DNA of 36,999 bases, taken from Rhodobacterales bacterium (GTDB taxonomy: Bacteria > Pseudomonadota > Alphaproteobacteria > Rhodobacterales > Rhodobacteraceae). Of this stretch, positions 21,401 to 29,558 are shown in pieces (position 1 is the stretch's first letter; each line of letters starts with the position of its first letter). The translations under genes were made by a program, and so were the position numbers. The notes below the pieces were generated by a model that did not search any database, was not told where the DNA came from, and worked only from the letters and a program-made list of their open reading frames with translations. The stretch lies in the NCBI GenBank assembly GCA_002746935.1, contig PDRW01000011.1, positions 1-36,999 on the forward strand. The letters are read 5' to 3'.

Positions 21401-22828
21401 TCACTCGATGTCGATCAGGTCCGCCACGCCGTTTGCCAGCATCTCGAGCACGGGCGGATCGGTTGCGAAATGCTCCTTCGCGGTGGCATAGGCGGCTTCG
21501 GCCTTTTCGTAATCGCCGAGCACCGCGTAGGAGCGCACCAGCATGATCCATTTGTCCGGATGGGCCGGGTCTTCGGCGAGGCGGGCGGCGAGGCCGGCAA
21601 CCATGGCGTCGATCGACGCGCCCTGTTCGGCCTCGGGCTGGGCGGCGCTCGCGGGGGCATCGGCCGTGGTGGGGCCGGAGGTGCCTGCGGGACTCTCGGG
21701 CTGGTAGATGTCCATTCCCAGCATGACCGCGGCCGCGTCGAACTTTTCCTGCACGAAGGGGGCGCCGGTGAAATGCGCAGCACCTTGAGTCAGCACGCTG
21801 GCGGCGCGGTCGTTGTCGCCCGCCCGGGCCAGCCGGGTGGCGAGCTCGATCCAGGCGGCATGGTCGAGCGGGTTTTCGGCGAGCTGCGCTTCCAGCTCGG
21901 CGATGCGGGCTTCTCCGACCTCGCCTTCGCTGGCCCCGCCGGCGGCGGCGATCTCGGCTTCGGTGGCGTCGGGCAGAACCTCGGTCAGATCCCGGCCGAG
22001 AAACCGCACCATGTTGACGATGTCGCGGCGCAGCAGCGCCATATAGGGGGCGTCGGCGGGGCTGTCCTGCTTCAGCCGGAGCCAGTCGTCCAGCGCGCCC
22101 GCGAAATCCTGCGCCTGCGCCTTGGCCAGCGCCACATAATAGCGGGCGCGCGGGTCCGGGGTTTCGGTGAGCACGGTTTCGAAGATGATCCGCGCCGCCG
22201 CCGGCACCTTGTTGCCGTTGGCGAGCACCAGCGCCTCGCCATAGGCCGCCTGCACCCCGGGCTCGTCGGGTTCCAGTTCGGCGGCGTGGCGATAGGCTTC
22301 GGCGGCGGCGGCGTTGTCGCCGATCTCGGCATAGGAGGTGGCGAGCACCCACCAGTCCTCGAAGCTTTCCGGGTTCTCGGCGGTGCGCCGGGTCATCAGC
22401 TGGATGCGGGCGGCCATGTCGCCCGAAGCGGCGCGGCGTTGGAGGATTTCGGTGCGTCGCTCCGCCAGCGGCCGGTCGGGCAGGCCGGGCTGGCCGGTGA
22501 CGACATAGCCGCCGAGCGCCACCGCGGCGGCGATTGCGGTGAGCGCCAGCGCCGCCAGCGGCGCGCGGTCGGAGCGGCTGAACCCGCCGTCGAGATGACG
22601 CGCGGCGGCGAGGGTGCGGCGCTCGATCTCCTGGGCGGCGGCGTCGCGCTGGTCGGCGGTGATCAGCCCCTGGGCCAGGTCGCGGTCGAGCTCGTCGAGC
22701 TGGTCGCGGAACACCGAGATCGCGCCGTCGCTGTCGTCCATCTCGATCGTGCCCCTGCGCAGGAAGGGCCAGGCGATCCAGAGCGCGCCGGCCAGGGCAA
22801 GGGCGAGAGCGGCAGGCCAGAACATCAT
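21401..22828 (-). CDS. ccmI: Cytochrome c biogenesis protein CcmI
   Basis: Holds apocytochrome c and presents it to the CcmF-CcmH haem ligation complex on the outer face of the inner membrane. The 475-residue protein has two N-terminal membrane spans (about 1-20 and 92-115) with a cytoplasmic loop between them carrying DQLDELDRDLAQGLI, and a long periplasmic part with TPR-like helices (ENPESFEDWWVLATSYAEIGD, DEPGVQAAYGEALVLANG, DKWIMLVRSYAVLGDYEKAEAAYATA). The start overlaps the ccmH stop by four bases, so they are translationally coupled. It is last in a regulator-ccmF-ccmH-ccmI operon, divergent from a multihaem cytochrome gene. Confidence 0.93.
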   Translation of the reverse strand: MMFWPAALALALAGALWIAWPFLRRGTIEMDDSDGAISVFRDQLDELDRDLAQGLITADQRDAAAQEIERRTLAAARHLDGGFSRSDRAPLAALALTAIAAAVALGGYVVTGQPGLPDRPLAERRTEILQRRAASGDMAARIQLMTRRTAENPESFEDWWVLATSYAEIGDNAAAAEAYRHAAELEPDEPGVQAAYGEALVLANGNKVPAAARIIFETVLTETPDPRARYYVALAKAQAQDFAGALDDWLRLKQDSPADAPYMALLRRDIVNMVRFLGRDLTEVLPDATEAEIAAAGGASEGEVGEARIAELEAQLAENPLDHAAWIELATRLARAGDNDRAASVLTQGAAHFTGAPFVQEKFDAAAVMLGMDIYQPESPAGTSGPTTADAPASAAQPEAEQGASIDAMVAGLAARLAEDPAHPDKWIMLVRSYAVLGDYEKAEAAYATAKEHFATDPPVLEMLANGVADLIDIE

Positions 22829-23367
22829 GTCTTCCCCTTGAGGATGCGTTGCGCCTTGCGGCGGTCGTCGTCGGAAAGCGCGGGCGCGGCGGGGGCGCGG
22901 GCCTGGCGGCGGCGGTAGCCATAGGCGCCGAGCGCGCCCAGCAGAAGGAACAGCACCGGGGCGGCCCAGAGCGCATATGTCCGCGCCGAGAGGGGCGGTT
23001 TCAGCAGCACGTAATCGCCGTAACGGTCATGGATATAGGCCAGCACTTCGGCGTCGCTGTCGCCCGCCGCCATGCGTTCGCGCACCAGCACGCGCAGGTC
23101 GCGGGCAAGACCGGCATTGGAATCGAAGATGCTTTCGTTCTGGCAGACGAGGCAGCGGAGTTTCCGCCCGATCGCGCGGGCGCGGGCCTCTTCGGCGGGG
23201 TTGTCGAACATCTCGGCGGCGTCGAGGGCATGGGCCGCGGGAATGAGGGCCGCAGGGATGAGGGCGAGGGCAAGCGCGAGGGCCAGAACAAGGCCCCTGG
23301 ACAGGCTCGGAAGACGCGGAGCCGTTTGCAAACGGCCTGGAGCGGAGCGGCGGGCCATGGGCATCAT
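22825..23367 (-). CDS. ccmH: Cytochrome c biogenesis protein CcmH
   Basis: Membrane-anchored thiol oxidoreductase that reduces the cysteines of apocytochrome c before haem attachment. The 180-residue protein has an N-terminal signal/anchor, the conserved redox motif LRCLVCQNESI (about residues 71-81), the helical NAGLARDLRVLVRERMAAGDSDAEVLAYIHDRYGDYVLLKPP, and a C-terminal membrane span followed by a short basic tail. Starts at 23367 or at the internal ATG codons nearby are all possible (MMPMARR). It begins four bases after the ccmF stop and overlaps ccmI. Confidence 0.94.
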   Translation of the reverse strand: MMPMARRSAPGRLQTAPRLPSLSRGLVLALALALALIPAALIPAAHALDAAEMFDNPAEEARARAIGRKLRCLVCQNESIFDSNAGLARDLRVLVRERMAAGDSDAEVLAYIHDRYGDYVLLKPPLSARTYALWAAPVLFLLLGALGAYGYRRRQARAPAAPALSDDDRRKAQRILKGKT

Positions 23368-23371
23368 CGTC

Positions 23372-25342
23372 CTATTCTGCCGGCTGGGCGGTGAAACGGC
23401 GGGTCGGGGCGCCGATCCGCAGCCGCCGGTCGGTGAGCGAGATCAGGGCGGAAAGCGTGAGCAGCAGCCCGCCGAACCACATCCAGGGCACGCCCGGGTT
23501 GTAGTAATAGCGCGTCACGAAGCCGCCCTGTCCGTCCGGGTCGCCCAGCACCGCGTAGAGATCGCCGTGCCAGAGGGTGACAATCCCGGCTTCGGTGGTC
23601 GGGCGTCCCTGCACCGGATAGAAGCGGCGTTCGGGGTGGAGGGTGGCGACGGGCTGGTCGTCGCGGCTGACGGTAACCGTGGCGATGGAGGTCTGGTAGT
23701 TGGGGCCGGCGTCGGCCACCACCTCGCCGAGGGTAAAGGCGTAGGGGCCGACCTGAACCGCGTCGCCCGGGGCGGAGGTCTGGATCTCCTCGACCTTCCA
23801 GACCGACACCGCCACCACGCCGGCCGCGGCGATGGCCAGCCCGAGGTGGCCGAGATAGAGCCCCCAGGCCGAGCGCGGCAGGCCGATGAGGCGCCTCAGC
23901 CGGGCCGCGCCGGATTTGCGGCCGCCGAGACGGGTCCAGAGATCCTGAAGCGTCGCCACGCCGAGCCAGATGGCGATGAGAATGCCGAGGAGGCCGACCG
24001 GGCTCTTGAGCCCGAGCGTGAGCGCGGCCAGCGCCGTCAGCCCCGAGGCGATGGCGAGGCCGATGCCGGCCTTCCTCAGCACCACCGCCGGGCGGGCGCG
24101 TTTCCACGACAGAAACGGCCCGATCCCGGCGGCGACCATCACAAGCCCGAAGACCGGCAGGAAGCTCTGGTTGAAATAGGGCGCGCCGACGGTGATCTTG
24201 GCGCCGTTCACCAGTTCGAGCACCAGGGGGTAAAGCGTGCCGACGAAGACCACGCCGGTGGCCGCCGAAAGCCCGATATTGTTGAACAGCAGCCCGGTCT
24301 CGCGCGACCAGAGCGCAAACACCCCGCCCTCGGCGATCGACGACCCGCGCCAGGCGTAGAGCGTGAGCGCGCTGCCGATATAGAGCGCGAGCAGCGCGAG
24401 GATGAAGGTGCCACGGTCGGGGTCGGTCGCGAAGGCGTGGACGCTGGTGAGAATCCCCGAGCGCACGAGGAAGGTGCCGATCAGCGAGAGCGAGAAGGTC
24501 AGGATCGCGAGCAGAATGGTCCATTTCAGCAGCGCATTGCGCTTCTCGACCACGATCGCCGAATGCAGCAGCGCGGTGCCGATCAGCCAGGGCATGAAGG
24601 AGGCGTTCTCCACCGGATCCCAGAACCAGAACCCGCCCCAGCCAAGCTCGTAATAGGCCCACCACGCCCCGAGCGCGATGCCCGCGGTTAGGCCCGACCA
24701 TGCGATCAGCACCCAGGGCCGCATCCAGCGTGCCCAGGCCGGGTCGACCCGTCCGGTGATGAGGGCGGCGACGGCGAAGGAAAAGGCGGTCGAGAAGCCG
24801 ACATAGCCGAGGTAAAGCAGCGGCGGGTGGAAGGCGACGCCCGGATCCTGCAACAGCGGGTTCATGCCCTGGCCGTCGAGCGGCGGGGTGGCGATGCGCA
24901 GGAAGGGGTTGGAGGTGAACAGGATGAAGGCGTAGAAGCCCGCGCCGATCATCGCCTGCACCGCCAGCACGGTGGAGCGCATCACCACCGGGATCATCCG
25001 CCCGAACACCGAGATCAGCACTCCGAACAGCGCCAGCATGAACACCCAGAGCAGCATCGAGCCTTCATGGTTGGCCCAGACCCCGGTGACCTTGTAGAGC
25101 ATCGGCTTCAGGGAATGCGAGTTCAGCGCCACGTTGACCAGCGAGAAGTCGGAGACCACATAAGCATATGTCAGCGCGCCGAAGGCCAGCGCGGCGGCGG
25201 CGAATTGCACCTGCGCGGCGCTGTCGGCCACCCGCATCGCGGCGGCGGAGCGCGCGCGGGTGCCCCAGAGCGGCAGACTGGCCTGCACCAGCGATGCGGC
25301 CAGCGCGATCCACAAGGCGAGATGGCCCAGTTCGGCGATCAT
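23372..25342 (-). CDS. ccmF: Haem lyase CcmF
   Basis: Core of the system I cytochrome c haem ligase. The 656-residue protein has about 14-15 membrane spans, the start MIAELGHLALWIAL, the NHEGSMLLW stretch (about 89-97), the periplasmic WWD haem-handling domain GGFWFWDPVENASFMPW (about 230-246), and four conserved histidine sites including LLHSAIV (about 255). The gene start overlaps the stop of the FNR-type regulator as TGATG, so regulator and haem lyase are translated together. A neighbouring ccmE, common in this position, is absent here. Confidence 0.96.
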   Translation of the reverse strand: MIAELGHLALWIALAASLVQASLPLWGTRARSAAAMRVADSAAQVQFAAAALAFGALTYAYVVSDFSLVNVALNSHSLKPMLYKVTGVWANHEGSMLLWVFMLALFGVLISVFGRMIPVVMRSTVLAVQAMIGAGFYAFILFTSNPFLRIATPPLDGQGMNPLLQDPGVAFHPPLLYLGYVGFSTAFSFAVAALITGRVDPAWARWMRPWVLIAWSGLTAGIALGAWWAYYELGWGGFWFWDPVENASFMPWLIGTALLHSAIVVEKRNALLKWTILLAILTFSLSLIGTFLVRSGILTSVHAFATDPDRGTFILALLALYIGSALTLYAWRGSSIAEGGVFALWSRETGLLFNNIGLSAATGVVFVGTLYPLVLELVNGAKITVGAPYFNQSFLPVFGLVMVAAGIGPFLSWKRARPAVVLRKAGIGLAIASGLTALAALTLGLKSPVGLLGILIAIWLGVATLQDLWTRLGGRKSGAARLRRLIGLPRSAWGLYLGHLGLAIAAAGVVAVSVWKVEEIQTSAPGDAVQVGPYAFTLGEVVADAGPNYQTSIATVTVSRDDQPVATLHPERRFYPVQGRPTTEAGIVTLWHGDLYAVLGDPDGQGGFVTRYYYNPGVPWMWFGGLLLTLSALISLTDRRLRIGAPTRRFTAQPAE

Positions 25343-26151
25343 CAGGCGGTTCCCCCCTTGTCTTTGAGCTTGTCATTGAGCCCGTCGTGAATGACGGGGC
25401 AAAGGCCCGGGCCTCCCCCGGGCGTGCCGGCTTCGCCGCCGTGGAGCGCCGCCATCGGGTTGTGCGGCTTGCGGGCCACGGGCACCGGCAGCCGGCGCGC
25501 TACCGCGGCGGGGTCGGGCACCACATATTCGGTGGGCGAGAGGAATTTGAACAGCCCGGATTTCTTCAGCCGCGAGAAGATCCGGCTGACGGTTTCGGCG
25601 TTGAGGCCGAGATAATCGGCAATGTCCTCGCGTGACAGCGGCAGATGCACCGGGGCGTGGCCCGGGGTGAGTTCGGCAAGCTCGGCCAGAAACAGGGTGA
25701 CGCGTTCGGTCGAATCGAGCCGGCCGAGGGTGGTCAGATGCCGGGTGGCGATCTCCAGCCGGGTGTGGACCACCTCGAACATCGTATACATGAAGCCCGC
25801 ATCCTGTTGCAGCGCCTCGATGTCGTGGCTGAGGTCGATCTCGCAGATCTCCACCGGCTCCAGCGCTTCGAGCCAGGCGGGGCTGTCTTCATGGGCCATC
25901 GGCCCGCAGACGGTGGCGCCCGGGCGTTCGATCCCCGAGATCTGCCGGCGCCCGTCGCGCAGCGAAATGCAGATCGCCGCGGTGCCGGACAGCACCGTCC
26001 AGAGCTTCATGCAGGCAGCCGGACGGGTCTCGATCCGCTCACCGCGGACGAGGGCGATCCTGCGGGTGGCCTGCCGTCCTGCCTGTTCGGCGTAGCGGCA
26101 AAGCTTCGAGGCGCAGGAGAAGCATTCACCGGCATCGGCAATGGTCGCCAT
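25342..26151 (-). CDS. FNR-type Crp/Fnr family regulator with Fe-S cysteines
   Basis: A 269-residue transcription factor with an N-terminal cysteine cluster (C10, C13, C18), a cyclic-nucleotide-binding-like fold and a helix-turn-helix. C103 in VEICEIDL aligns with the fourth cluster ligand of E. coli FNR, so all four ligands for an oxygen-sensitive [4Fe-4S] cluster are present. The recognition helix LGLNAETVSRIFSRLKKSG has the E--SR pattern that reads TTGAT half-sites. The last 50 or so residues after the winged helix are unlike FNR proteins and fall on palindromic DNA (see 25372-25423). It is the first gene of the ccmF-ccmH-ccmI operon and divergent from the cytochrome gene. Expected role: switch both on when oxygen is low. 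Confidence 0.92.
   Translation of the reverse strand: MATIADAGECFSCASKLCRYAEQAGRQATRRIALVRGERIETRPAACMKLWTVLSGTAAICISLRDGRRQISGIERPGATVCGPMAHEDSPAWLEALEPVEICEIDLSHDIEALQQDAGFMYTMFEVVHTRLEIATRHLTTLGRLDSTERVTLFLAELAELTPGHAPVHLPLSREDIADYLGLNAETVSRIFSRLKKSGLFKFLSPTEYVVPDPAAVARRLPVPVARKPHNPMAALHGGEAGTPGGGPGLCPVIHDGLNDKLKDKGGTA
25372..25423. repeat. palindromic DNA under the regulator's C-terminal tail
   Basis: GTCATT (25372-25377) pairs with AATGAC (25390-25395), and GCCCGGG (25405-25411) with CCCGGGC (25417-25423, loop CCTCC). The words TTGAGC-TGTC/TTGAGCCCGTC repeat beside them. The structure resembles a REP-like element that has entered the 3' end of the regulator gene and become coding. Confidence 0.45.
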
Positions 26152-26214
26152 TTTGGCTCCGGTCGGGTGTGGCTCAAGATTGCCCTATCCGAAACGACCT
26201 CCGCCCGCGCCGCA

Positions 26215-26228
26215 ATGACCAGGATCAA
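26215..26228 (-). promoter_or_regulatory. FNR-like box before the regulator operon
   Basis: ATGAC-CAGG-ATCAA matches the FNR consensus TTGAY-N4-RTCAA at nine of ten positions. It lies 64 bp before the regulator start, so the regulator may control its own operon. Confidence 0.55.
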
Positions 26229-26326
26229 GCCGCGCCAAAAGGATGCCGTCCGCAAGACCGTCCGCAAGGCCGTCCGTATGGGCGGGTTTCCGCGGCAGGG
26301 CCGAATTTCTCCGCAAACCGCGAAAT

Positions 26327-26342
26327 CCTGACAATTGTCAGG
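26327..26342 (+). promoter_or_regulatory. FNR/NNR-like palindrome before the cytochrome gene
   Basis: CCTGACAATTGTCAGG is a perfect 16-bp palindrome. Its core CTGAC-N4-GTCAG matches the Crp/Fnr-family pattern TTGAC-N4-GTCAA at eight of ten positions. TACACT follows at 26365-26370, the right distance for a class II (-41.5) activated promoter, predicting transcription from about 26376. Confidence 0.65.
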
Positions 26343-26364
26343 GCGGCGACATGCCGCGCCCGGT

Positions 26365-26370
26365 TACACT
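26365..26370 (+). promoter_or_regulatory. candidate -10 element of the cytochrome promoter
   Basis: TACACT lies about 32 bp from the centre of the palindrome at 26327-26342, as in FNR class II promoters. A -35 box is not needed or seen. Confidence 0.45.
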
Positions 26371-26379
26371 TTTCCTGAG

Positions 26380-26525
26380 CCGGCGCACCTGCGCGCGCCG
26401 GCGCGGCTTCCCGGCGGACGTCTCAGCGGCCGGTCCGGTCCGGCGCACCTGCGCGCGCCGGCATAACTTCCCGACGGGCGTCTCAGCGGTCGGGCCGGTC
26501 CGGTGCACCTGCGCGCGCCGGACCG
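26380..26525 (+). repeat. 60-bp tandem repeat in the cytochrome leader
   Basis: Two complete units (26380-26439 and 26440-26499) and a shortened third (from 26500) have an exact 60-bp period. Each unit starts with CCGGCGC-N8-GCGCCGG, a 7-bp stem (a G-T pair in unit 3). Each full unit also has a second stem: CCGGC/GCCGG in unit 1 (26411-26415, 26429-26433) and CCGAC/GTCGG in unit 2 (26471-26475, 26489-26493). The G-C pair is replaced by A-T, keeping the pairing. The array ends about 20 bp before the ATG and would be in the 5' leader. Confidence 0.85.
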
Positions 26526-26546
26526 GCTCTCAGAAGGGAGTGGATC

Positions 26547-28903
26547 ATGAGAAACGCAATCACAATCCTGTTGCTGCTCCTCGGCACCACCGGCCTTGCC
26601 GTGGCTGAGAGCGCAGAGACGACAGGCCCCGGCGCGGAAACGGCCGTGCCCGACCGTGTGGACCCGGATGTGGCAGCCGAAAAGGGCTGCCTGTCCTGCC
26701 ATGACGGCATCGAACAATTCACCACCGGCGACATGATGGAGCAGATCATGGACATCGGTGCCGAATACGGCGACCCGGGCGGTTGTGTCACCTGCCACGG
26801 CGGCACCCCGCAGGGTCTCACCGCCGAAGAGGCCCACCAGGGCGCGCCGGAAGATCTGGCCGACTACGGCCCCGACATGTTCTTCGCCGATCCGGGCTCG
26901 GTCTGGATCGCCGAGAAGACCTGCGGCCAGTGCCATTCGGGCTATGCCGACCGCCTCAGGCTCGCGCTGATGAACACCGAGGCCGGCAAGCTTCAGGGCA
27001 ACCTGTGGTCCTGGGGCGTGCTCGACACCCACCGCGCGGTCTATGGCAACTATGATCTGACCGATGAAGACGGCCATGTGCCGAGCGTCGGCACCGAGGC
27101 CTATCAGGACTACATGGTCGCCTTTGCCGAAGCCCATCCCGAGCAGATGCCGCTGTCGATGGAGCAGGTGCCGGAGGTCGATGTGGATGCGGTCTCCGAA
27201 CATCCGAACCTCGCCGGCATCACCTATTCGCGCCAGCAATGCCAGCGCTGCCACGTCGGCGTGACCGGCCGCGAGAAGCGCGGCGACTACCGCGGCACCG
27301 GCTGCTCGTCCTGCCACGTGCCCTATTCCAACGAAGGCTTCTACGAAGGCAACGACCCGACGATCGCGCGCGACCAGCCCGGCAAGCTGCTGACCCACCA
27401 GATGCAGGCGACCCGCGAGCGCAGCGTCACCGTGGGCGACGTGACCTATTCCGGGATCCCGTCCGAAACCTGCAACTCCTGCCACAACCGCGGCAAGCGG
27501 ATCGGCGTGAGCTATCAGGGCATCATGGAATTCCCCTATGGCTCGCCCTACACCGCCACCGGTGGCAAACAGCCGAAGCTGCACACCAAGAAATATCTCT
27601 ACATCAAGGACGACCTGCACCATTCGATCGAATCGCGCGACGGCAACCCCGAAGGCGGCATGCTCTGCCAGGACTGCCACACCACGATCGACATGCATGG
27701 CGACGGCAACCTGCCGGGCACCACGCTGGCCCAGGTCGAGATCGAGTGTGAAGACTGCCACGGCACGGTTGCCGAATTCCCGTGGGAACTGCCGCTGGGC
27801 TATGGCGAAGAGCACGGGATGGAGCTTGCGGATACCCCGCGTGGCCTGTCGGAAGACACCAACGACGAGAGCTACATGTTCGGCACCGAATATGAGGCGG
27901 GCGACGGCTACCTGCTCACCGCCCGGGGCAACCCGTTTGGCAACGTGGTGCGCCGGGGCGACAAGGTGATCCTGCATTCGGCTTCCGGTCTCGACTTCGA
28001 AGTGCCGGTGCTGAAGCAGATCGCCCTTGACGGCAGCTGGAAATCGCCCGATGCCGAGGTCGCGATGAGCCAGGTCGGCGCCCATATGGAAAGCATGGAA
28101 TGCTACGCCTGCCACGCCGACTGGGCGCCGCAATGCTACGGCTGCCACATCACCGTGGATTATTCCGAGGGCAAGACCGACGTCGACTGGATCGCCAACG
28201 CCAATGCCATCGGCCCCGACGGTCTCGGCCCGGACAACGTGCTCGGCACCAACGGCCTGACCTCCGCCGGCAAGGTCTCCGAGACCCGCTCCTACCTGCG
28301 CTGGGAAGAGCCGACCCTCGGGATCAACGGCGAAGGCCGCGTCAGCCCGCTGATGCCCGGTTGCCAGGTCATCACCACGGTGATCGACAAGGACGGCCCC
28401 CCGACGCCGGCGGCACCAAGGGCCTCGACCACGCCGCGGTGCAGCCGCATACCGCCGGCCGTGAGGCGCGCGCCTGCGAAAGCTGCCACAACAACCCCAA
28501 GGCGCTTGGCTACGGGATCATGGGCGGCCGCTTCATGCAGGGCTATCAGGACGGCTTCATCGTCGATCTGGAAACCGCCACCGGCGAGGTCATCCCCGGC
28601 CAGACCCAGTTCCAGTCGGTGCCGATCCCCTCGCTCGACCACGACCTCAGCCGGATCGTGACCGAGGATGGCCAGCAACTGGTGACCATCGGCTCGCACT
28701 GGCCGCTGACCGGCCCGCTGCCGCAGGAGATGCGCGACAAGATGGAACGCACCGGCCTGTGCATGGGCTGCCACCAGAACATGACCGATGAGGAGCTCTG
28801 GAGCCGTGTCAATACCCCCGGTTTCGTCTCCAACGAAGAGCACCAGAAGATTCTGGACGCGGCGCTCAAGGCCTATGCCGAAACCAACCCGGCCGGGAAG
28901 TGA
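26547..28903 (+). CDS. Secreted multihaem cytochrome c (12 CxxCH motifs, frame break at 28397-28402)
   Basis: A Sec signal peptide (about 1-20, AITILLLLLGTTGLAVA) is followed by CxxCH haem sites at about residues 48, 80, 126, 232, 253, 309, 374, 401, 519 and 530. The frame then shifts by -1 at a run of six C; in the other frame the product continues with GGTKGLDHAAVQPHTAGREA and two more haem sites (CESCH about 644, CMGCH about 739), ending at 28901-28903 for about 785 residues. Without the shift it ends at 28661 with 704 residues and 10 haems. One missing C restores a natural reading. No CxxCK or porin partner is seen, so it is not an obvious NrfA, Otr or PioA. Probable periplasmic electron carrier or reductase; substrate unknown. 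AGAAGGGAG precedes the ATG. Confidence 0.88.
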
Positions 28904-28930
28904 TCTCCTGACCGGATGACCCCGGGGCCC

Positions 28931-28965
28931 GGCCGGTCATCCTGACCGGCCGGGTTCCTTTTTGG
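28931..28965 (+). terminator. tandem terminator 1
   Basis: GGCCGGTCA pairs with TGACCGGCC around TCC (28931-28951), followed by GGGTTCCTTTTTGG. It lies 28 bp after the cytochrome stop. Confidence 0.85.
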
Positions 28966-28970
28966 GGTGG

Positions 28971-29004
28971 GGCCGGTCATCCCGACCGGTCGGGGTCTTT
29001 TTGG
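28971..29004 (+). terminator. tandem terminator 2
   Basis: A diverged copy of terminator 1: GGCCGGTC pairs with GACCGGTC with one G-T pair (28971-28991), followed by GGGGTCTTTTT. Confidence 0.75.
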
Positions 29005-29012
29005 GAAGTGGG

Positions 29013-29041
29013 GGCCGGTCATCCTGACCGGCCGGGGTTTT
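29013..29041 (+). terminator. tandem terminator 3
   Basis: GGCCGGTCA/TGACCGGCC again (29013-29033), followed by GGGGTTTTCC. The three hairpins have a spacing of 40 and 42 bp. Confidence 0.7.
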
Positions 29042-29177
29042 CCGAGTGGGGGCAGGGCCCCCGGCCGCCCCGGCCCGGACGGTCCCTGCCGGCCCGCACA
29101 CCTCCCGCAAATCGGGCTTGCGCCCGAAGCACCCCCCTGCCTTCATGGCGTCAGCACCGATCGACCCCGGAGACCCC

Positions 29178-29558
29178 ATGGCTCGCCTGAGATCCCTCTG
29201 CCTCGCCGCGCTTTGCGCCCTCACAGCCACCCCGGCCCCGGCCCCGGCCCCGGCCCCGGCCCAGCCGGTGCCGCTGCCGGTGCTCGCAAAAGACCTGCTC
29301 GGGCCCTGCCAGGACGCCGACAACGATGCCCGCGACGGGTTTCTGTCCGAGCTGGAATGTATCGGTTTCATCGCCGGTTTCGTGGCCGCGCTCGAAGTAT
29401 CGGACGGCCCGCCGCTCTGCCTGCCCGACACCAACCGCGAAGACGCGATCCGCCGCGCCTATGTGCGCTGGGTTCATGCGTCCTTTTCGAAACGCGCGAA
29501 GCTGCCGGTGGGCGTGGCGCTCAAGGCGGCGCTGGACGAAAGCTTCGGCTGCGAGTAA
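29178..29558 (+). CDS. Small secreted Rap1a/Tai-like protein
   Basis: A 126-residue protein with a signal peptide (MARLRSLCLAALCALTATPA), a Pro-Ala repeat (PAPAPAPAPA, from a 6-bp CCCCGG repeat in the DNA) and a compact domain. ECIGFIAGFVAAL, LCLPDT, AIRRAYVRWVHASF and the final ALDESFGC fit the Rap1a/Tai family, whose founding members are periplasmic immunity proteins against type VI effectors but which also occurs alone. There is no type VI effector nearby. GGAG lies before the ATG at 29178, which gives a proper signal peptide; upstream starts would not. Placed between the cytochrome and the oxidoreductase operon; function here unknown. Confidence 0.75.
   Translation: MARLRSLCLAALCALTATPAPAPAPAPAQPVPLPVLAKDLLGPCQDADNDARDGFLSELECIGFIAGFVAALEVSDGPPLCLPDTNREDAIRRAYVRWVHASFSKRAKLPVGVALKAALDESFGCE

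Follow-up and report, generated by a model that had tools for sequence, protein, structure and literature searches.

A CcmF-CcmH-CcmI paralogue set linked to a divergent 12-haem cytochrome and an FNR-type regulator in Rhodobacteraceae and other bacteria

Why would a bacterium keep paralogues of CcmF, CcmH and CcmI beside the gene of one multihaem cytochrome? In the sections of the papers cited here, NrfEFG of Escherichia coli is described as a dedicated set for the nitrite reductase NrfA (PMC12285233) and SirEFG(H) of Shewanella oneidensis as CcmF/CcmH/CcmI paralogues serving the sulfite reductase SirA (PMC6976685); in both cases the dedication is explained by the odd haem motifs of the clients (PMC12285233, PMC6976685). 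The window, a stretch of 36,999 nucleotides that is an entire contig of a draft Rhodobacteraceae genome (2.81 Mb, 83.9% complete), carries ccmI, ccmH, ccmF and fnr in this order on the minus strand, with the genes abutting or nearly so, and a gene for a 12-haem cytochrome, called CYT here, runs divergently on the plus strand from 26547. An earlier note on this DNA had proposed that the genes form a dedicated maturation set controlled by its own oxygen sensor. The features are as follows.

21401-22828, minus strand: ccmI paralogue, 475 aa, apocytochrome chaperone with TPR domain (TIGR03142 81.4 bits, cut-off 29.3; PF23914 69.6 bits)
22825-23367, minus strand: ccmH paralogue, 180 aa, thiol-disulphide subunit, overlapping ccmI by 4 bases (PF03918 163 bits)
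23372-25342, minus strand: ccmF paralogue, 656 aa, cytochrome c synthetase (haem lyase) (PF16327 344.7 bits; PF01578 174.8 bits; TIGR00353 639 bits, cut-off 569)
25342-26151, minus strand: FNR/FixK-type regulator, 269 aa, with C10, C13, C18 and C103, sharing one base with ccmF (PF13545 52.4 bits; PF00325 47.7 bits)
26215-26228, unstranded: FNR-like box ATGACCAGGATCAA, 9 of 10 positions against TTGAY-N4-RTCAA (site scan and family-wide enrichment)
26328-26341, unstranded: palindrome CTGACAATTGTCAG, an FNR-like site of the conserved form CTGAY-N4-RTCAG (site scan; enriched in fnr-CYT gaps)
26380-26528, unstranded: G+C-rich tandem unit of 60 bp, 2.5 copies, between the palindrome and the CYT start (repeat scan)
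26547-28903, plus strand: CYT, 12-haem cytochrome, distant ExtM homologue, frame broken near 28397 (two profile matches, 26634-28490 and 28400-28888)
28924-29038, plus strand: 42-bp tandem repeat (2.6 copies, 28931-29038) with three terminator-like hairpins, downstream of CYT (repeat and hairpin scan)
29178-29558, plus strand: small Rap1a-family protein (PF18602, 36.8 bits, cut-off 27.7), start picked by eye within ORF 29046-29558

Coordinates and profile matches agreed with the gene calls of the earlier note for the FNR-type regulator overlapping ccmF and for ccmH and ccmI after it. The note's divergent cytochrome is likewise divergent; its 12 haem motifs, however, do not lie in one open frame, as 10 CXXCH are in ORF 26547-28661 and the last two in ORF 28100-28903. 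The split results from 31 bases that the window lacks at 28397 relative to the related loci L014, L015 and L016, a gap that is either a real lesion or an assembly fault. Furthermore, the palindrome stands about 205 bases from the CYT start in the window, compared to about 80 in, for example, L024. The copy in the window may therefore be non-functional, since its frame is broken and the distance from promoter to gene is enlarged by the repeat. Full-length relatives have a single ORF of about 770-920 aa with 12 haem motifs.

To establish whether the set is an extra copy, CcmF genes were counted in 49 genomes (25 with ccmF beside CYT, 14 with CYT only and 10 CYT-less members of the family). Two or three CcmF genes were present in 24 of the 25 genomes with ccmF beside CYT, or in 25 of 26 when the genome of L071, with two, is included; the sole exception was the window's own assembly, in which one CcmF was found. 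The 14 genomes with CYT but no adjoining ccmF had none or one, and among the 10 CYT-less family members nine had one and one had two. CYT is present in 7 of 246 genomes of the family, 243 or so of them from different genera. The six CYT-bearing genomes of this set other than the window's have 2, 2, 2, 2, 3 and 3 CcmF, whereas the 239 CYT-less genomes, counted by eye from a table in which a few of the multiples are split matches, have one CcmF in 210 cases, two or more in 25 and none in 4. In the window's own genome a second CcmI, 27% identical to that of the window, is encoded at G000:C89:54430-54777. General CcmB and CcmC, the latter of which we presume would match PF01578, were undetected in this incomplete assembly; the general ccm operon is therefore probably missing from the draft. 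These counts bear out the extra copy that the earlier note had suspected: the CcmFHI set is a paralogue, additional to the general set. An extra ccmF-ccmG-ccmH-ccmI set of another kind was also observed in the same family (L098, L100, L105, L108, L109, L115 and L124), in which CcmF forms its own clade (7 rows, SH-aLRT 100) and the fetched 9 kb hold no ORF with two or more CXXCH.

The neighbourhoods of CYT relatives were then compared across lineages. A genome scan gave 107 relatives, of which 80 were kept (L009-L013, duplicates of L014, L016, L021, L026 and L034, were removed before loci were counted), making 81 loci with the window; these are not independent, as many are close kin and related loci are counted repeatedly. 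Their labels span alpha- and gammaproteobacteria, Campylobacterota, Aquificota, Deinococcota, Chloroflexota, Bacteroidota and Planctomycetota. The linkage of CYT with FNR and ccmF/H/I, whose absence from relatives would have spoken against the reading of the earlier note, is conserved in 36 of the 81 loci, all without the remaining ccm operon. In 6 loci ccmF, H or I lies by CYT with no FNR nearby, 5 have a whole ccm operon, 2 a whole operon and FNR, 1 a ccm piece and 4 FNR only (among them L055 and L093, with no ccm gene within 7 kb). Neither ccm nor FNR was found in the other 27, of which 23 run into a contig end within 7 kb; the uncut ones are L043, L049, L052 and L053. At least one ccm gene thus lies within 7 kb of CYT in 50 loci and none in 31. 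FNR was scored by best match, by which L049, where FNR adjoins CYT, and L054 scored none, and FNR linkage is therefore at least 42 of 81.

The arrangement varies among these loci. A ccmABC...EFGHI operon encloses both CYT and FNR in L051 and L075, CYT directly follows ccmI in L062 and L067, and CYT splits the ccm operon in L068, L081 and L089; in gammaproteobacteria and Thermaceae CYT is beside the only ccm operon detected. A lone CcmI gene, whose product belongs to a clade of its own, follows CYT in L042, L044 and L059. An independent dedicated chaperone was considered for these three loci and dropped, as their genomes have 1, 1 and 2 CcmI and the second CcmI in G315 is a weak match of 39 bits. 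These genomes may have no full CcmI besides the one linked to CYT, and linkage therefore need not mean dedication. No CcmF at all was found in two Campylobacterota genomes and one planctomycete that have CYT. Separately, L053 and L054 bear the labels Thermus/Deinococcus group and Dehalococcoidia, and their CYT proteins share 73% and 70% identity with the alphaproteobacterial protein, which suggests that the contigs are mis-binned or recently transferred. A plasmid search gave a single, distant match (28% identity over 29%).

The descent of the module proteins was examined with the window CcmF as the query, and module-type CcmF was found in 8 of the 246 family genomes, 7 of them with CYT. Identity among these was 71-82% (71-100% including the window's own genome), and the next value among the matches listed was 57%. 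The eighth genome, G244, has module-type ccmF-ccmH-ccmI at L134:5355-9228 without CYT and FNR. A quick maximum-likelihood tree built from 83 CcmF groups those of the module in one clade (35 rows including the window, SH-aLRT 99) and places the general Rhodobacterales CcmF apart from it; the CcmF of whole operons near CYT (L051/L075, gammaproteobacteria and Thermaceae) fall outside the clade. Module CcmI likewise forms one clade (34 rows, SH-aLRT 100). Distances of CYT and of module CcmF were correlated over 33 loci (r 0.62; 0 of 2000 permutations as high), a correlation that vertical descent of both would likewise produce. Of the 20 His/Trp columns invariant in housekeeping CcmF, 19 are retained in the 35 module CcmF, and the RCxxC motif is retained in 39 of 39 CcmH from CYT loci and the window, so that module CcmF and CcmH look functional. 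Altogether, these conserved and co-inherited parts suggest that CYT has its own assembly line.

If so, the reason for it would differ from that given for the known sets. The analogy with NrfEFG and SirEFG holds as anatomy. Similar to NrfEFG, the module has CcmF/H/I paralogues beside the client, on top of general Ccm and with no CcmABCDE or CcmG of its own, and the window CcmF reaches the NrfE-type profile NF007691 (470.6 bits, cut-off 394); however, NCBIfam TIGR03145 for NrfE (627.6 against 927.3) and TIGR03147 for NrfF (94.1 against 159.2) stay below their cut-offs, the client has 12 haems and no CXXCK, and the module operon includes its own FNR-type regulator. Similar to SirEFG, in which the chaperone role is partly shared with CcmI (PMC6976685), CcmF/CcmH/CcmI paralogues go with one multihaem cytochrome. 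SirA, however, is described in the cited part of its source as an octahaem protein with a CX12NKGCH motif, regulated by CRP and SirR (PMC6976685), whereas CYT has 12 CXXCH (or 11 and one CX4CH) and no CX12-15CH; SirCD-like partners were not found in the window. Motifs were compared in 74 CYT sequences longer than 650 aa, with the window's 704-aa ORF, whose tail is out of frame, included in both the clustering and this comparison. No CXXCK is conserved among the 74 (L092 has a single CPTCK), and there is no conserved CX12-15CH; one of the 12 haem motifs is CX4CH in 18 of them. The comparable dedicated set that the earlier note had inferred from NrfEFG is supported in its paralogy and conserved linkage, and an NrfEFG-like reason for dedication is not supported. 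A search of the open-access literature returned no paper on the CYT-ccm module, with subscription papers outside its scope and absence therefore unproven.

Because CYT has ordinary motifs and is found in other genomes alongside a single CcmF, we think it rather probable that the extra set serves CYT through timing, load and apoprotein chaperoning. We infer that the set is dedicated to CYT in the genomes that have it; CYT also occurs with a single or no CcmF, and the set is therefore not strictly necessary for the CYT family. The same observations feed the main rival, in which the extra CcmFHI acts as another general synthetase, induced through FNR at low oxygen, when c-type cytochromes are made in large numbers, and serving all clients alike; it would adjoin CYT because no other client consumes as much haem. 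In its favor, the conserved CYT haem motifs are all handled by general Ccm in other proteins, CYT of Rhodospirillales, gammaproteobacteria and Thermaceae is in or beside a whole ccm operon, and the other extra CcmF-G-H-I set of the family has no multihaem gene in its fetched 9 kb. However, a general back-up would have no need to be nearly confined to CYT genomes or to co-evolve with CYT, as module CcmF is and does, and we regard such plain dosage as unlikely.

It is improbable that only the neighborhood is shared, that is, that an FNR-controlled island moves among marine bacteria with a synthetase and a cytochrome that are functionally unlinked. The patchy spread of CYT in the family and the orphan ccmFHI of G244 are consistent with such an island; however, the linkage of CYT to ccm genes recurs with different ccm clades and arrangements (L051/L075, L062/L067, L068/L081/L089 and L042/L044/L059), which one moving island does not explain. 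A reading in which CYT is no client but itself takes part in maturing c-type cytochromes, for instance as redox partner of CcmFH, would suit its repeated placement within or next to ccm operons (a whole operon in 7 loci) but is scarcely credible, as 239 of the 246 family genomes lack CYT and 235 of those have CcmF, and CYT occurs in the Campylobacterota and planctomycete genomes where no CcmF was found.

The region between fnr and CYT was examined for signs of oxygen control. The regulator cysteines C10, C13, C18 and C103 are kept in 35, 37, 38 and 38 of 40 CYT-linked regulators, and 35 of the 40 have the recognition helix ET[VI]SR, which we take to be of FNR type by comparison with E. coli FNR. 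A TTGAY-N4-RTCAA site (9 or 10 of 10 positions) is present in 29 of 40 fnr-CYT gaps, compared to 26 of 577 control regions, taken from upstream of other genes of these loci, and to 1.2 of 40 expected from shuffled gaps. The CTGAY-N4-RTCAG palindrome is present in 33 of 40 gaps and in 3 of 577 control regions. The FNR-like boxes that the earlier note had placed between the two genes are present, at 26215 and 26328 in the window, and across relatives such boxes are far more frequent than in shuffles and control regions. The overlap of fnr with ccmF is 4 bases in 22 loci. Rhodobacterales FnrL resembles the module regulator in its FNR-type fold, helix-turn-helix, four conserved cysteines and FNR-like boxes; the module regulator is nevertheless a separate protein, which scores 79 bits for FixK and 59.5 bits for FnrL, both below cut-off, and the true FnrL, encoded on another contig of the same genome, scores 434 bits (cut-off 300). 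The conservation of boxes, palindrome, cysteines and ET[VI]SR supports FNR-type control of the fnr-CYT gap, with either the linked regulator or FnrL as the candidate binder. From the four conserved cysteines, the divergent layout and the conserved boxes, we further infer that the CYT module may be controlled by its own oxygen sensor, as the earlier note had proposed.

In the mechanism that we propose, the 12-haem periplasmic CYT and a small secreted partner would be expressed divergently from the FNR-type regulator and the extra CcmF-CcmH-CcmI. Depending on oxygen, the regulator would gain or lose a [4Fe-4S] cluster, and it would turn on both divergent arms when oxygen is low. The extra CcmI and CcmH would take up the haem-rich apocytochrome and keep it reduced, and the extra CcmF would attach 12 haems delivered by the general CcmABCDE. 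Such an arrangement would spare this large client from competing with housekeeping cytochromes. If true, a set travelling with a cytochrome of ordinary motifs would mean that System I can be specialized by client recognition or load. A bolder version, in which a System I synthetase is dedicated to a cytochrome of ordinary haem motifs by apoprotein recognition through CcmI and by oxygen timing rather than by an odd motif, and CYT is a new catalytic 12-haem family using an invariant non-haem cysteine, is tentative, and we lean against it.

The nature of CYT itself was approached from its conservation. The earlier note had placed the cytochrome in no electron-transfer family that it could name, which is partly wrong, as CYT is remotely homologous to ExtM (215 bits for NCBIfam NF040943, against a cut-off of 800). 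ExtM of Geobacter sulfurreducens is a 12-haem cytochrome in the part of the source cited here (PMC5877670). CYT shares its 12 haem motifs, and the homology extends over about 460 residues; however, scores of 215 bits for the window and 208-245 bits for five diverse CYT are far from the cut-off, and no ext names (extHIJKLNOPQS) appeared among the ORFs scanned, which were a part of the neighbors. Among the 74 CYT, identity is 97% or higher in 183 columns, and a non-haem cysteine (MPGCQ, residue 606 in the window) is present in 74 of 74. As many residues outside the haem motifs are invariant, including this cysteine, the role of a terminal reductase is more likely for CYT than that of a mere electron carrier. 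A fold search of the PDB with a predicted CYT model gave no fold relative and no match supporting an enzymatic role. In alignment A1 (54 of 80 CYT loci; seven loci with truncated or over-long ORFs were excluded first, together with the window, then 12 more for size), eight non-motif histidines are invariant and two more near-invariant, and one or more haems may accordingly be without a histidine distal ligand. A signal-like N-terminal stretch, read by eye, predicts a secreted or periplasmic protein. CYT is a widespread uncharacterized 12-haem protein, as the fetched loci carry the labels of seven named phyla or groups of that rank, and would be a candidate low-oxygen enzyme if it has a synthetase set of its own. 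A link to denitrification was tried and rejected: NosZ (PF18764) showed no higher co-occurrence, at 16 of 30 CYT-bearing and 14 of 30 CYT-less genomes, and NirS-type proteins (PF02239 above 300 bits) were in 10 and 8 of 30, respectively, in a comparison in which several genomes of the first set and none of the second are from outside the Rhodobacterales.

The small Rap1a-family protein lies outside the range covered by the earlier note and belongs to the module, its cluster being present in 48 of 81 loci. In gammaproteobacteria and Thermaceae, the Rap1a-like protein is replaced by a TPR protein, with a cluster in 17 loci, and by another small secreted protein, found in 13. At L062:12358-13727 and L068:12370-13781, a TPR protein and a small protein with no Pfam match follow CYT. 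The absence of a porin or quinol dehydrogenase next to CYT, stated in the earlier note, is correct among the window ORFs scanned and does not extend to all relatives, as a putative porin lies within 1.5 kb of CYT in five loci (L052, L061, L067, L083 and L086; PF16930 in the one member scanned) and a NapC/NirT-type gene is near CYT in L058. A molybdopterin oxidoreductase cluster, of which one member was scanned, was also observed close to CYT in 7 loci, in two of which it is truncated by the edge of the locus; these loci are too few and too related to serve as evidence. Downstream of CYT, five terminators were counted in the region compared to 4.7 in shuffles, and the notable part is the tandem array.
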